Part shown: piece after piece, positions 50,420-56,228 of the stretch
Layout of the letters: every line of letters starts with the position of its first letter
How positions within the stretch are numbered: position 1 is the stretch's first letter
Assembly (NCBI RefSeq): GCF_001695855.1
Contig: NZ_MBSS01000012.1
Span: 1 to 64,000, forward strand
Source: Ensifer sp. LC163
GTDB lineage: Bacteria; Pseudomonadota; Alphaproteobacteria; Rhizobiales; Rhizobiaceae
Length of the DNA stretch: 64,000 bases
Direction of reading: 5' to 3'
Made by a program: the position numbers and the translations under genes
The notes under the pieces: generated by a model
Databases searched by the model: none
What the model saw: the letters and a program-made list of their open reading frames with translations, nothing else
What the model was told of the DNA's origin: nothing

Positions 50420-53400
50420 TCAGACGAGTTCGACGTCGACCACACCCGGGGCCGAACGAAGTGCTGCGGCGATCTCCGGCGAAATCCGGAACTTCTCGCT
50501 GAGCTCGACCTCGATCTCGCGCTGACCGTTGTCCTTGATGACGATGAAGGAGACGAGGCCCTCACCCCGCGCATTCAAATGTGCGGCGATGGACTTCAGC
50601 GGCCCGGCATCGCGCACATAGACGCGCAGCGCCTTCTGCATCTGCAGCGATTCTTCCTCAAGCGAGCGCAGGGTCTGGATGCGAAGGCCGATACCTTCCG
50701 GGCGTTCCTCCGCCTGCACGGTCATCACCAGCGATTTGCCGGGCTCGAGCAGGTCACGATACTGGTGCAGCATCTCAGAAAACAGCACGGCCTCGAACTG
50801 GCCGGATGAATCGGAGAAGGCGATGATGCCCATCTTGTTGCCGGTTCGGGTCTTGCGCTCCTGCTTGGAGGTAACGGTGCCGGCGAGGCGGCCCGCCGTT
50901 GCCCCCTTCTTCACCGCACCGGCGAAATCGCCGAAGGTCTGGACGCGCATCTTGGCGAGCAGCGGATTGTAGGTATCGAGTGGGTGGGCCGAGAGATAGA
51001 AGCCCAGCACCTGGAATTCGCGGTGCAGCTTTTCCGAGGCGAGCCAAGGCGTGTAGGTGGGAAGCGCGATCCGTTCCGGTCCGGTCGCTGCCCCTGCCCC
51101 GAACATATCGCTCTGTCCGCTTGTCTTGTTTTCCTGCGCGCGCTGGGCAAAGCCGAGGATGCGATCGAGACCGCCGACCAGTTCGGCCCGATCGTAGCCG
51201 AAGCAATCGAAGGCGCCGGCGGCGATCAAGCTTTCGAACACACGCCGGTTGAGCAGCTTCGGATCGATCCTCAGGCAGAAATCCTCAAGGCTTGCAAACT
51301 CGCGGTCGCCGCGAACGGCAACGATGTGCTCGACCGCCGATTCGCCGACGCCCTTGATGGCCGCCAATGAATAATAGATGCGCTTGTCGCCGGTCTGGAA
51401 GTGCCGGAAGGACGACTGGACCGATGGCGCGATCACCTGGATCCTCAAGCGCCCAGCATCCTGACGGAAGTCGTTGACCTTTTCCGTGTTGGCCATGTCG
51501 AGCGTCATCGACGCCGCCAGGAACTCGACCGGATAGTGCGCCTTCATATAGGCCGTCTGGTAGGAGACGATGGCGTAGGCAGCAGCGTGCGACTTGTTGA
51601 AGCCGTAGTTGGCGAACTTGGCAAGAAGATCGAAGATCAGGTCCGCCTGCGGCTTCGACACCTCGTTCTTGACCGCGCCGTCGACGAAACGGGCGCGCTG
51701 CTTGTCCATCTCCTCCTTGATCTTCTTACCCATGGCGCGACGCAGAAGGTCGGCTTCGCCGAGCGAGTAGCCCGAAAGAACCTGGGCGATCTGCATCACC
51801 TGTTCCTGGTAGACGATAACACCCTGGGTTTCCTTGAGCAGATGGTCGATCTTGGGATGGATCGATTCGATCTCTTCTTCGCCGTGCTTGCGGGCGTTGT
51901 AGACCGGGATGTTTTCCATCGGGCCCGGGCGATAAAGCGCCACCAGCGCGATGATGTCCTCGATGCAGTCGGGCCGCATGCCGATCAGTGCCTTGCGCAT
52001 GCCGGCACTTTCCACCTGGAACACGCCGACCGTTTCGCCCCGCGACAGCATCTCGTAGGTCTTCTCGTCGTCGAGCGGAATGCTGGCGAGATCGACCTCG
52101 ATGCCGCGCGTCTTGACGAAATCGACGGCCACCTTCAGCACCGTCAACGTCTTCAGGCCGAGGAAGTCGAACTTCACCAGGCCAGCCTGCTCGACCCACT
52201 TCATGTTGAACTGGGTCACCGGCATGTCGGAGCGCGGGTCTCGGTACATCGGCACCAGCTTCGACAGCGGCCGATCGCCGATCACGATACCGGCGGCGTG
52301 GGTCGAGGCGTGGCGATAGAGGCCTTCGATCTTCTGCGCGATATCAAGAAGACGGGCGACGACCGGCTCCTTTTCCGCCTCCTCCTGCAGGCGCGGTTCT
52401 TCCTCGATCGCCTTCGACAGTGGCGTCGGGTTGGCCGGGTTGTTGGGTACGAGTTTGCAGATCTTGTCGACCTGGCCGTAGGGCATCTCAAGCACGCGGC
52501 CGACGTCGCGCAGCGCCGCGCGCGCCTGCAGCGAACCGAAGGTGATGATCTGGGCGACCTGCTCGCGGCCGTATTTCGCCTGGACGTAACGAATGACTTC
52601 TTCGCGCCGGTCCTGGCAGAAGTCGATATCGAAGTCGGGCATCGACACGCGTTCAGGATTGAGGAAGCGTTCGAACAGCAGCGAGAACCGCATCGGATCG
52701 ACGTCGGTGATCGTCAGCGCATAGGCGACGAGCGAACCTGCGCCGGAACCGCGGCCCGGGCCGACGGGAATGTCGTGCTGCTTGGCCCATTTGATGAAGT
52801 CGGCAACGATCAGGAAGTAGCCGGGGAACTTCATGCGCTCGATGACACTGAGTTCGAACGCCAACCGTTCGCGGTACTCTTCCTCGGTATAGCCGGGGGC
52901 CATGCCAAGCTTGCGCAAACGATCGTCGAGCCCCTCTTCCGCCTGTCGGCGCAGTTCGCTGGACTCGGCGCGCTCGGCCTCCTCCGGATCGTCGGAGGCG
53001 CCGGTGAAGCGCGGCAGAATGGGCCCGCGCGTCTTCAGCATGAACGAGCAGCGCCGCGCGATCTCGATGGTGTTTTCAAGCGCTTCGGGCAGATCGGCGA
53101 AAAGCGCCGCCATCTCCTTCCGGCTCTTGAGGTAATGATCCGGCGTCAAGCGGAAGCGGCTGTCGTCGGAAACCATGGCGTTATGGGCAACAGCCATCAA
53201 CGCGTCGTGCGCTTCGTAGTCGGATGGCGAGGGAAAGAACGCCTCGTTCGTCGCCACCAGCGGCACATCGAACTTGTACGCCAGGTCGATCATCCGGCTT
53301 TCATGCCGGCGGTCGAAGTTGCCATGCCGCTGCAGCTCGATATAGAGCCGATCGCCGAAGAGATCCTTCAAGGCCTCAAGACGCGCCTCGGCCAGGGCCG

Positions 53401-53917
53401 TCGAGCCGGACTTCACCGCCATGTCGATCGGGCCGCCGCCGGCACCTGAAAGCGCGATCAACCCATCGGTACCAGCCTCTGCAAGCCACGACCGCGTGAT
53501 CCTCGTGACCTGACTGCCTTCCCCGCCGAGATAGGCGCGGCTCACCAGATCGACCAATCGCGTGTAGCCGTCGTCGGTCGCTGCGATCAGGACGATGGCC
53601 GGCAGCTTGGCAAGCTGCTGGGCGTGGCCGCGACGATCACTGTCGACCTCGTCTTCCATGTCGATCGACAGTTGACAACCGGTAAGAGGCTGCAAGCCGT
53701 CTTCGGCCGCCTTCTGGGAGAATTCGAGAGCCGCGAAAAGATTGTTGGTGTCGGCGATGCCGATCGCCGGCTGGGCGTCAGCTACAGCCTTGCCGATCAC
53801 CTTCTTCAGAGGCAGTGCCCCTTCGAGCAACGAAAAAGCCGAGTGAACACGCAGATGCACGAACTGCGGATCCGCAGCCGTCTGATCGTTCCGTTCCACG
53901 CTGCCTTGATCCGCCAT
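50420..53917 (-). CDS. dnaE: DNA polymerase III alpha subunit
   Basis: This is the catalytic subunit of the replicative polymerase. Its 1165 residues match replicative DnaE. An N-terminal PHP domain (FVHLRVHSAFSLLEGA, residues 19-34) precedes the palm domain with GPGRGSGAGSLVAYAL and catalytic aspartates in PDFDIDF (427-433) plus a later aspartate in the VKFDFLGLKTL region. Fingers, a helix-hairpin-helix (AIKGVGESAVEHI), a beta-clamp-binding stretch near QSDMFG and an OB fold (about 1000-1080) follow. It is the long replicative form, not the mutagenic DnaE2. The SOS-controlled small gene lies just upstream. Confidence 0.97.
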   Translation of the reverse strand: MADQGSVERNDQTAADPQFVHLRVHSAFSLLEGALPLKKVIGKAVADAQPAIGIADTNNLFAALEFSQKAAEDGLQPLTGCQLSIDMEDEVDSDRRGHAQQLAKLPAIVLIAATDDGYTRLVDLVSRAYLGGEGSQVTRITRSWLAEAGTDGLIALSGAGGGPIDMAVKSGSTALAEARLEALKDLFGDRLYIELQRHGNFDRRHESRMIDLAYKFDVPLVATNEAFFPSPSDYEAHDALMAVAHNAMVSDDSRFRLTPDHYLKSRKEMAALFADLPEALENTIEIARRCSFMLKTRGPILPRFTGASDDPEEAERAESSELRRQAEEGLDDRLRKLGMAPGYTEEEYRERLAFELSVIERMKFPGYFLIVADFIKWAKQHDIPVGPGRGSGAGSLVAYALTITDVDPMRFSLLFERFLNPERVSMPDFDIDFCQDRREEVIRYVQAKYGREQVAQIITFGSLQARAALRDVGRVLEMPYGQVDKICKLVPNNPANPTPLSKAIEEEPRLQEEAEKEPVVARLLDIAQKIEGLYRHASTHAAGIVIGDRPLSKLVPMYRDPRSDMPVTQFNMKWVEQAGLVKFDFLGLKTLTVLKVAVDFVKTRGIEVDLASIPLDDEKTYEMLSRGETVGVFQVESAGMRKALIGMRPDCIEDIIALVALYRPGPMENIPVYNARKHGEEEIESIHPKIDHLLKETQGVIVYQEQVMQIAQVLSGYSLGEADLLRRAMGKKIKEEMDKQRARFVDGAVKNEVSKPQADLIFDLLAKFANYGFNKSHAAAYAIVSYQTAYMKAHYPVEFLAASMTLDMANTEKVNDFRQDAGRLRIQVIAPSVQSSFRHFQTGDKRIYYSLAAIKGVGESAVEHIVAVRGDREFASLEDFCLRIDPKLLNRRVFESLIAAGAFDCFGYDRAELVGGLDRILGFAQRAQENKTSGQSDMFGAGAATGPERIALPTYTPWLASEKLHREFQVLGFYLSAHPLDTYNPLLAKMRVQTFGDFAGAVKKGATAGRLAGTVTSKQERKTRTGNKMGIIAFSDSSGQFEAVLFSEMLHQYRDLLEPGKSLVMTVQAEERPEGIGLRIQTLRSLEEESLQMQKALRVYVRDAGPLKSIAAHLNARGEGLVSFIVIKDNGQREIEVELSEKFRISPEIAAALRSAPGVVDVELV

Positions 53918-54079
53918 TTCGACACCCTGATTCCTGCCAGTGTGTCAGGATATCCCGCTTATCACCCGCCATGTCCAGTTTTGCATCGTGGGCCGGCGTT
54001 CTTTTCAACGGTGCGCTGCCGGGATGGTATCGAGCGACCCCGAATCGGGATCGCGCCGCTTCGAAAATAGGCCCTCAGA

Positions 54080-54166
54080 TCAAAGCCCGAGAGCGATGAA
54101 GGCAACGCTGGCGACGAACAGGCCCATCGATGTGAAGGCGGCGAGGTCACGAACAAAATCAGTCAT
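54080..54166 (-). CDS. 28-residue single-pass membrane protein under an SOS box
   Basis: The open frame from ATG 54166 to TGA 54080 encodes MTDFVRDLAAFTSMGLFVAS followed by VAFIALGL. Residues 9-28 are a continuous hydrophobic helix, with a short charged N-terminus. AAGGAG is seven bases before the ATG, an almost ideal ribosome binding site. A perfect GTTC-N7-GTTC lies 34-48 bases upstream in the promoter. Size, topology and LexA control recall Caulobacter SidA, a 29-residue SOS-induced division inhibitor, but I cannot show homology. A TisB-like membrane peptide is an alternative. It lies between dnaE and a divergent exported-protein gene. Confidence 0.7.
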   Translation of the reverse strand: MTDFVRDLAAFTSMGLFVASVAFIALGL

Positions 54167-54199
54167 AACATGGCTCCTTTTCCGTTATGTTTTTACTTT

Positions 54200-54223
54200 G
54201 TTCTATTTTTGTTCTCTCGTCAA
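54200..54223 (-). promoter_or_regulatory. SOS box inside the small-protein promoter
   Basis: GTTC-TATTTTT-GTTC (54200-54214, plus-strand reading) is a perfect alphaproteobacterial LexA site. On the minus strand TTGACG (54218-54223) is a good -35, and the site fills the following 17-18 base spacer up to a weak -10 (CAAAGT/AAAGTA, 54194-54200). LexA bound here would block RNA polymerase. Confidence 0.75.
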
Positions 54224-54363
54224 CCGCCGTCGGGCACAGCGCCCGCTTTCCACCGCGCATGGTTAACTGCGTCGGCCATGACCGCTCGAGACCATTAACC
54301 GAAACCTTGAGTGCTCCGTGCATTGCGCCTATGACGAGAGCAACCACACGGAGCACCAGCGAC

Positions 54364-54936
54364 ATGAATGCACGCCTGACCCTGCCCCTCGTTTTCCTGC
54401 TTCCTTCGCTGGCCATTGCCGCCGAGGCGATCGACCCCGGCCGCATCGTTTCGGCGGCGACCGGCGACTGGGACAAAGACGGTGCAAGCGACCTGGCGCT
54501 GCTGGTGAAACCTGGCGACGGGACTGACGAGGACAACGCCGTCTATATCTATCTCGCCGGGGAAGACGGCCCGCTGGCTCTCAAGTCAGCCATTCCGAAC
54601 AAGGTCTGGGGTCAATACGGCCTTGTCGGCCAGGCCCCGTCCATCACCGCGCTCCCGAATGGCTCTCTGCTGATTACCACGCACAACGATTCGGTCAGCC
54701 GCGACCGCTGGGAGCAGAAGCTGACGGTCGCCTACCGTAATTTCGACTTCGTCGTCGCCGGTTACACCTATTCGTCCTACGACACGCTCGATCCCAACAA
54801 CACCTCGCAATGCGATCTGAATGTCCTGACCGGCAAGGGCAAATCGAATGACAAGCCCGTCAGCGTCAAAGGCGAACTTGTGCTTCTCAAGGATTGGACC
54901 GACAACCGCGGGCAACACGCCTGCGGCATCTACTGA
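54364..54936 (+). CDS. Exported protein of unknown function
   Basis: The 190-residue protein from ATG 54364 has a signal peptide (MNARLTLPLVFLLPSLAIAA/EA). The mature part begins DPGRIVSAATGDWDKDGASD, an FG-GAP/VCBS-like calcium-loop pattern (DWDKDGASDLALLV), followed by beta-rich sequence and two cysteines near the end (QCDLNV, HACGIY). The frame continues upstream to 54187 but has no signal peptide there. No catalytic motif. It is divergent from the SOS small gene across about 200 bases; its own promoter may share the region. Confidence 0.72.
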   Translation: MNARLTLPLVFLLPSLAIAAEAIDPGRIVSAATGDWDKDGASDLALLVKPGDGTDEDNAVYIYLAGEDGPLALKSAIPNKVWGQYGLVGQAPSITALPNGSLLITTHNDSVSRDRWEQKLTVAYRNFDFVVAGYTYSSYDTLDPNNTSQCDLNVLTGKGKSNDKPVSVKGELVLLKDWTDNRGQHACGIY

Positions 54937-54947
54937 TCGAGCCGTAT

Positions 54948-54962
54948 GTTCCCTTTTTGTTC
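54948..54962 (+). promoter_or_regulatory. SOS (LexA) box upstream of the DUF5680 gene
   Basis: GTTC-CCTTTTT-GTTC is a perfect GTTC-N7-GTTC. It begins 12 bases after the preceding stop codon and ends 54 bases before the DUF5680 ATG, with TTTACATCG just downstream as a possible -10 area. Confidence 0.65.
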
Positions 54963-55016
54963 TTTACATCGATGCGATGTCGCGCCATGCTGCCACCGAA
55001 CAAACAGGGTGTTCTC

Positions 55017-55484
55017 ATGGCCAGCATCGAGCAGCTCAAAGACTTCATCGTGGAAGCCAAATCGAAGACATATGTCGGCGGTGGCATAGCGCGTGCTCCG
55101 TCGCGCGCGGGATCCCGCGATATCGGCTATCAGCGCGATCAGTGGCGGTATCTCGACAGTTACTTCGGTGGAACCGACTTTGCCGGACAGGAGACGGTGT
55201 GGCTCGAGGACGATACCCGTTGGGCCATGAATTACTTCGGCCGCGTCATCCGGCCCGACCTGATCGATGCGGAAAGAGCTGGCATCGTCATCAAGGCCGC
55301 GCTCGAAACCATGTATCGTGAGAAGCAGCACTTCCTCGGCGGAATGGAATATCGGCACGCCTATGGCTATTACATCGACAGCAGCCGTGGCGACACAGGG
55401 CACTTTTCCGGACGCGAGGTCATTTTTGTCGACGGCGACGAAGCCTACGAGCTCGACTATCGCGGCGGCCTCATCGTGCCGTAA
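55017..55484 (+). CDS. DUF5680 domain protein, possibly SOS-regulated
   Basis: The 155-residue cytosolic protein consists of one DUF5680 domain: FIVEAKSKTYVGGGIARAPS, RDQWRYLDSYFGGTDFAGQE, the aromatic RWAMNYFGRVIRPDLIDAER and a C-terminal YELDYRGGLIVP. In other bacteria this domain occurs at the C-terminus of XRE-type regulators; here it stands alone without a DNA-binding domain. Function unknown. I chose ATG 55017, with AGGGTG before it. A perfect LexA-type box 54 bases upstream suggests damage induction. Confidence 0.78.
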   Translation: MASIEQLKDFIVEAKSKTYVGGGIARAPSRAGSRDIGYQRDQWRYLDSYFGGTDFAGQETVWLEDDTRWAMNYFGRVIRPDLIDAERAGIVIKAALETMYREKQHFLGGMEYRHAYGYYIDSSRGDTGHFSGREVIFVDGDEAYELDYRGGLIVP

Positions 55485-55541
55485 GCCAAGGGACCGAGCG
55501 TGATGGCGCCGTTTCGTCGAAACTGGGCGTTGCCGCGAGCG

Positions 55542-56228
55542 TTACTTCAGCTCGACAACCTTGCCATCTTCGATCGTCACCCGTCGGTCCATCAGCGACG
55601 CCAGTTCGTGATTGTGCGTAGCGATCAGCGCTGCGAGGCCTGACTGGCGAGCCAATGCCTCGAGCGCCTCGAAGACGTAGCCGGCGGTTTCCGGATCAAG
55701 ATTGCCGGTCGGCTCGTCGGCCAGCAACACCAGCGGGGCATTGGCAACCGCACGGGCGATCGCCACGCGCTGCTGCTCGCCGCCCGATAGCTCCGACGGG
55801 CGGTGGTCGGCTCGGTGGCCGATGCGCATATAGTCGAGCAGCGCCCTCGCCCGTTCAGCGGCCTCGGCCTTGCCGAGACCGGCGATCAGCTGCGGCATCA
55901 TGATGTTTTCGAGAGCGGTGAACTCCGGAAGCAGATGATGGAACTGGTAGACGAAGCCGATCTCGTTGCGACGGATCGCGGTGCGCCTGTCGTCGTTGAG
56001 ACCGTCGCAGGTCACGCCGTTGACCACGACCTTTCCGCCATCAGGGCGCTCGAGCAGGCCGGCGACGTGCAGCAGCGTCGACTTGCCGGTGCCCGACGGC
56101 GCCACAAGCGCAACGGTCTCGCCGCTTTTCAGCGTGAAGTCCGCCCCCTTGAGGATCGAGAGAAAAGTGTCCCCCTGCCCGTAATTACGCTCGATGCCCG
56201 AAAGCTGCAGTGCCACGCGCGCATTCAT
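55542..56228 (-). CDS. lolD: Lipoprotein-releasing ABC transporter ATP-binding protein
   Basis: LolD powers extraction of outer-membrane lipoproteins from the inner membrane to LolA. The 228-residue ATPase has Walker A (APSGTGKST, near residue 44), Q-loop, signature [17 protein letters not shown], Walker [13 protein letters not shown] and the switch histidine in [11 protein letters not shown]. The start [20 protein letters not shown] fits. It follows lolC/E by 16 bases, one operon. Confidence 0.94.

Follow-up and report, generated by a model that had tools for sequence, protein, structure and literature searches.

The window (the whole 64-kb stretch of DNA that was analysed) carries, next to dnaE and behind a predicted LexA operator, a conserved frame for a 28-residue peptide that is predicted to form a single membrane helix. 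We regard this peptide as the likely product of a LexA-repressed, SidA-like SOS checkpoint gene, a division inhibitor that probably acts on FtsW. The frame, the selection acting on it, the operator, the promoter geometry, the conservation across lineages and the profile homology to SidA were computed directly; that LexA binds, that damage induces the gene, that the peptide enters the membrane and that FtsW is its target is our inference.

A conserved 28-codon frame upstream of dnaE

The peptide frame occupies positions 54080..54166 of the minus strand, with the ATG at 54166-54164 and the stop codon at 54082-54080, and its translation is MTDFVRDLAAFTSMGLFVASVAFIALGL (28 aa). The ribosome-binding site AAGGAG (54174..54179, minus strand) is located 7 nt 5' of the ATG; in the loci whose LexA box starts at -48, its GGAG columns are conserved in 13-15 of 15. 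Hydropathy reaches 2.37 over the best 15 residues of the peptide, for which an inner-membrane location is predicted. The gene of the replicative DNA polymerase III alpha subunit, dnaE (50420..53917, minus strand; NF004226/PRK05673, 1502.8 bits against a cut-off of 1002), begins ~160 nt past the peptide stop on the same strand. An earlier note on this DNA was thus right about the ATG with its well-spaced AAGGAG, about the 28-codon frame of a hydrophobic helix and about the location next to dnaE.

The frame is kept in all of the 30 closest loci, where it always starts with ATG and always encodes 28 aa. Pairwise differences per site among related loci amounted to 0.265, 0.061 and 0.494 at codon positions 1, 2 and 3, respectively, and the dN/dS ratio was 0.136 among five genomes of the window's genus. 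Because of this codon-position pattern we conclude that the frame is under purifying selection, and the pattern together with the conservation rules out a chance ORF. A structured RNA was also rejected (z-score -1.0), and no Rfam family matched positions 53800-55600 at E <= 1. The weak terminator-like hairpin at 54071..54094 (minus strand), which spans the peptide stop codon, is not evidence of termination (one hairpin found against 0.6 expected in shuffled sequences). As to the start region, ATGTTATGA (54163-54171, minus strand) holds a two-codon frame, ATG TTA TGA, that overlaps the start codon of the peptide; the letters CCATGTT before the peptide ATG are common to eight loci (L001-L008) and absent from the other 22 of the 30 closest ones.

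As a single query, the window peptide had matches at E <= 1 in 150 of the family's 297 genomes. The corresponding profile search found it in 196 of the 297 genomes, from 77 of 109 genera, at E <= 0.01, so that the conservation in related genera, on which the earlier note had made its proposal depend, was borne out.

LexA-type operator and promoter

The sequence GTTCTATTTTTGTTC on the plus strand at 54200-54214 reads GAACAAAAATAGAAC on the strand of the peptide gene and is a predicted LexA operator of the form GAAC-N7-GAAC. The exact box was present 46-52 nt upstream of the ATG in 29 of the 30 closest loci, the one exception being L027, where it is degenerate. The -35 element TTGACG is located at 54218..54223 (minus strand); TTGAC is found in 15 of 15 loci in the aligned columns, and it begins 9 or 10 nt 5' of the box in 28 of the 29 loci that have the box. 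A degenerate third half-site, AAAC (54189..54192, minus strand), lies 11 nt beyond the operator and is a full GAAC in some relatives (GAAC in 9, AAAC in 18 and other sequences in 2 of the 29 loci with the box). A scan for sigma-70 promoters found none, and the promoter assignment therefore rests on the conserved TTGAC. Both the perfect box following TTGACG and its persistence in relatives, for which a tBLASTn-type check had been suggested, were confirmed by these comparisons.

Taken alone, the LexA box is weak evidence. GTTC-N7-GTTC occurs six times in the 64-kb window, where 2.4 occurrences are expected, and a count of six is reached by 5 of 100 shuffled sequences; genome-wide, the narrower pattern GAACAWAANNNGAAC occurs seven times and the reversed pattern four times. 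It is the conservation across related loci that makes the box more than a chance match. The exact box was also present in 19 of 20 weaker family matches, picked across the range of E-values, and with one mismatch in the remaining one. In the same genome, the lexA promoter carries the box GAACACATATGGAAC, and a frame near a second dnaE-type gene, which we take to be ImuA-like, carries GAACATAACGGGAAC.

Two neighbouring genes are of separate interest. A DUF5680 gene (PF18931; 55017-55484, plus strand) has its own GTTC-N7-GTTC at 54948-54962, ~54 nt upstream, and an exact box ~52-55 nt before the gene was found in six of six near full-length matches (L001-L006); the partial matches in L007 and L008 have no box at that place. 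The DUF5680 gene may be an SOS gene. A conserved gene at 54364-54936 (plus strand), divergent from the nearby peptide gene, encodes a protein that begins like a signal peptide and contains the stretch DWDKDGASDLALL; it was found by tblastn in 20 of the 30 loci.

Relation to Caulobacter SidA

NCBIfam provides a model named 'cell division inhibitor SidA' (NF033228, div_inhib_SidA). We scanned with it four peptides encoded upstream of dnaE in family f104, which is of the Caulobacteraceae type, as indicated by its PopZ-like genes and by the DnaE of one genome, which matches records titled Caulobacter. All four, e.g. MAKIARETLALASVVSFVWMMCSLAYVAA, matched, with scores of 50-60 bits (cut-off 35), so that SidA itself precedes dnaE behind a LexA box. 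The peptide was found before dnaE in 29 of the 30 f104 loci and also in the Caulobacter-titled loci L156-L158. The window peptide gave no match to NF033228 at the 35-bit cut-off. In an alignment (A1) of 30 peptides, seven from Caulobacteraceae and 23 from elsewhere, seven matched the model; these are presumably the seven of Caulobacteraceae, as was seen directly for two of them. None of the 23 peptides from outside Caulobacteraceae, the window peptide included, was recognised.

The two groups of peptides are connected by a bridge profile, built from 34 peptides of other lineages that had been picked by box and hydrophobicity, not by likeness to SidA. This profile scored all 27 distinct Rhizobiaceae and all 25 distinct Caulobacteraceae peptides above every one of 196 controls (hydrophobic frames from the opposite strand). 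With the profile made from Caulobacteraceae only, all 27 Rhizobiaceae peptides scored above the 99th percentile of these controls and 17 above their maximum, the window peptide obtaining 6.7 bits, a score reached by 1 of the 196 controls. With the Rhizobiaceae profile, 12 of the 25 Caulobacteraceae peptides scored above the 99th percentile and eight above the control maximum. In a comparison of the two profiles with hhalign, residues 1-20 were aligned to residues 1-20 with a score of 22.4 and a probability of 81.3%, the maximum among 200 column-permuted control profiles being 14.4. The direct comparison between Rhizobiaceae and Caulobacteraceae gives a weak signal, though one that goes beyond its controls, and the bridge profile is the stronger evidence. 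An initial set of 582 control frames separated poorly: none of the 27 Rhizobiaceae peptides scored above its 99th percentile, and 22 controls scored as high as the window peptide. Scores of up to 64.7 bits with the Caulobacteraceae profile mean that real SidA frames without an exact box must have been among these controls, and the set was replaced by the opposite-strand frames.

The motif [RKQ][DE]xx[AT][LFA] was present in 27 of 27 Rhizobiaceae, 20 of 25 Caulobacteraceae and 18 of 34 other-lineage peptides, against 0 of 196 controls and about 0.5% of shuffled sequences. The common core can be summarized, with exceptions, as M-x-x-[FL]-x-R-[DE]-x-x-[AS]-[LF]-x-[SA]-x(3)-F, in which F17 is identical in all 30 aligned peptides. 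SidA and the window peptide are alike in length (29 and 28 aa), in consisting of one helix, in the core from R-[DE] to the final F (R-[DE]-x-x-[AS]-[LF]-x-[SA]-x(3)-F), and in having a LexA box shortly upstream of a gene placed before dnaE. They differ in the C-terminal half, and the curated model NF033228 misses the window peptide; Rhizobiaceae also lack the stretch FVWM that most Caulobacteraceae peptides have. The SidA-like checkpoint proposed in the earlier note draws good support from the locus, the operator, the length and the profile homology to those Caulobacteraceae peptides that NF033228 recognises.

Occurrence in the order and the class

Sixty regions upstream of dnaE were read in the order (one from each of 51 other families and nine more, two of these from g73, a genus in the same family as the window), dnaE having been located in 147 of 150 genomes. 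Also read were 29 class-level loci (one of which, L102, is from the order), the 30 f104 loci and 80 named loci. An exact box followed by a hydrophobic frame of 20-46 aa starting within 140 nt was found in 27 of 60 order, 4 of 29 class, 21 of 30 f104 and 14 of 80 named loci. The reversed control, CAAG-N7-CAAG, was present in 4 of 199 loci and accompanied by such a frame in none; the opposite orientation, GTTC-N7-GTTC, was present in 7 of 199. By profile score, with a threshold of 8 bits, 30 of 60 order, 6 of 29 class, 29 of 30 f104 and 18 of 80 named loci were positive, the opposite-strand maximum being 6.1 bits for the other-lineages-only profile and 5.5 bits for the all-peptide profile. The latter includes the boxed peptides themselves; it added 17 loci outside it, 16 of which have an exact or one-mismatch box within 90 nt upstream.

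The 18 positive named loci are L156-L169, L171, L199, L202 and L209. Those from L156 to L171 are titled Caulobacter, Phenylobacterium, Brevundimonas or Caulobacteraceae, one of them only Proteobacteria, and the last three are titled Parvibaculum or Rhodobiaceae. The 62 negative named loci are mostly titled Rhodobacteraceae or genera of that group. Half of the 60 order regions and 23 of the 29 class loci showed no such peptide upstream of dnaE, so the gene is widespread at this place, not universal.

We also searched the aligned peptides against the 150 whole genomes of the order and took the best match of each. Among genomes that had not contributed to training, some of which share a genus with a training genome, the best match was located on the dnaE strand, 0-2 kb upstream of the gene, in 18 of 18 cases at E < 1e-6, in 12 of 15 at 1e-6 to 1e-3 and in 8 of 9 at 1e-3 to 0.011 (38 of 42 in total at E < 0.011), compared with only 2 of 14 at 0.011 to 0.1. 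The training genomes gave 13 of 13.

The locus L035, from a 1.3-Mb genome that belongs to a different family within the order, keeps a perfect GAACAAAAATAGAAC and a 34-aa hydrophobic peptide before dnaE. Nine Caulobacteraceae-type promoters (L132, L133, L137, L146, L149, L153, L162, L163 and L165) contain two LexA-like boxes 18 nt apart, most with a mismatch, a layout that differs from that of Sinorhizobium, where 11-nt repeats overlap.

Second copies and prophage-type neighbours

Eleven genomes of the family contain at least two peptide matches. Twenty loci from nine of the multi-copy genomes were read: seven precede dnaE and have an exact box, and 13 have neither feature (for G016 the copy linked to dnaE is L273, which is outside these 20). 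The neighbours of eight of the 13 box-less copies were inspected, and six neighbouring proteins from five loci were scanned. L292 lies beside genes for an exonuclease and for an Erf-like annealing protein of phage type, L294 by an exonuclease VIII and L310 by a member of a phage exonuclease family; the two proteins scanned from L298 and L305 had no PHROGs match. At least L292, L294 and L310 are therefore probably prophage copies. Searches of phage records gave matches that we do not count as evidence. For the window peptide the only ones were full-length matches with 36% identity at E 10 in the Rhizobium phages B1VFA and V1VFA-S. Two box-less copies were also searched, with no result or with a match to Pseudomonas phage Lu11 at E 3.

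Linkage to dnaE and alternative explanations

In all of the 30 closest loci dnaE is found downstream on the strand of the peptide, at an estimated 106-402 nt from its stop codon. Among the 20 weaker family matches 14 precede dnaE, and the 1.3 kb read downstream of the other six contains no dnaE. In three of three genomes of genus g73, from the same family, the frame has another location, where TTGAC and a pair of overlapping boxes precede it at unchanged spacing, and in G357 it also lies away from dnaE, resembling the g73 copies but with one box. Peptide and operator thus remain paired when parted from dnaE. Detached matches in G383, G389 and G341, which have no suitably placed promoter, were set aside as chance or unclear.

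The constant position before dnaE in the closest loci could suggest a leader peptide or upstream ORF, the translation of which controls dnaE, and a Ribo-seq study of S. meliloti names sORF25 among the 5'-UTR sORFs that are possible upstream ORFs (PMC10117765). A leader peptide would be expected to be linked obligately to dnaE, whereas frame and operator occur without it in the six sampled loci, the three g73 genomes and G357, and these detached copies argue against such a role. The variable distance to dnaE and the strong selection on the amino acids speak against it as well, and we consider a leader peptide very improbable. The operator could alternatively serve chiefly to render dnaE SOS-inducible, with the peptide as a by-product; no convincing terminator was found between peptide and dnaE in the window, so read-through into dnaE is possible. 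The peptide is, however, under selection, and the detached copies keep the operator away from dnaE, which leaves this explanation highly unlikely too.

A third alternative accepts an SOS-induced single-helix peptide but assigns to it a role other than inhibition of FtsW, either as a membrane effector that slows growth or as an inhibitor of another envelope protein. TisB of Escherichia coli is a short hydrophobic SOS-controlled peptide with such a role, and E. coli DinQ is described in similar terms. Both resemble the window peptide in being small, SOS-controlled and single-helix, but they belong to another lineage, and no described RNA family was found near the window gene: Rfam gave no match at E <= 1 across 53800-55600, and thus no antisense regulator of a described kind. 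The TisB-like toxin that the earlier note had offered as a second option found no positive evidence here, the Rfam comparison covering described families. Given the profile homology and the locus shared with SidA, we judge an effector of this kind unlikely, if less so than the two explanations centred on dnaE, and favour a SidA-like division inhibitor.

Discussion

Caulobacter SidA is reported to be a 29-aa SOS-induced inner-membrane inhibitor that interacts with FtsW and is suppressed by changes in FtsW, and the role proposed for SidA and DidA is to hold FtsW/FtsI/FtsN in an inactive state (PMC4211646). Other papers state that lexA mutants of Caulobacter filament owing to sidA (PMC12700426) and, in a 2026 study of YneA, present low-confidence AlphaFold 3 models of SidA against helix TM7 of FtsW (PMC13396833). 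DidA of Caulobacter crescentus is likewise a DNA-damage-induced small membrane division inhibitor directed at the same complex, but, as described there, it is induced by DriD independently of LexA and interacts with FtsN, not FtsW (PMC4211646).

By analogy with Caulobacter SidA, the window gene would be kept off in undamaged cells by LexA bound to GAAC-N7-GAAC between the -35 element and the start codon. Upon DNA damage LexA would be removed and the 28-residue inner-membrane peptide made, a short charged N-terminus followed by one helix, which may hold the FtsW/FtsI/FtsN septal machinery inactive and so delay division until repair. FtsW was found in the same genome (G000:C1:386500-387537). A close relative may already provide evidence of translation: Ribo-seq of Sinorhizobium meliloti 2011 detected sORF25, a translated small frame in the dnaE1 5'-UTR (PMC10117765), which by its position would be the same peptide frame; the passages on sORF25 draw no link to LexA or SidA (PMC10117765).

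The survey and the second copies can be combined in one reading, which we put forward tentatively and would not call probable. SidA would be one branch of an old family of LexA-controlled division brakes, mostly unannotated and usually placed before dnaE, that ranges over Rhizobiaceae, much of their order, Caulobacteraceae and Parvibaculum-like lineages. Temperate phages of Rhizobiaceae would have acquired copies that lack the operator and now lie within phage clusters of recombination genes, where they might serve to stop division of the host.

In the literature searched by title and opening of the abstract we found no description of SidA outside Caulobacter, and an earlier mention is possible; the string 'sida' in papers on other alphaproteobacteria turned out to be the Sidak test. 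How rhizobia and their relatives halt division during the SOS response was likewise not found in the literature searched. The locus offers a specific and easily deleted candidate gene for an SOS division brake, testable across a large part of the class, and the peptide sequences are now available for extending NF033228. A checkpoint peptide can stay hidden in very many genomes by its small size, and rhizobia and many related bacteria may share a SidA-type division brake.
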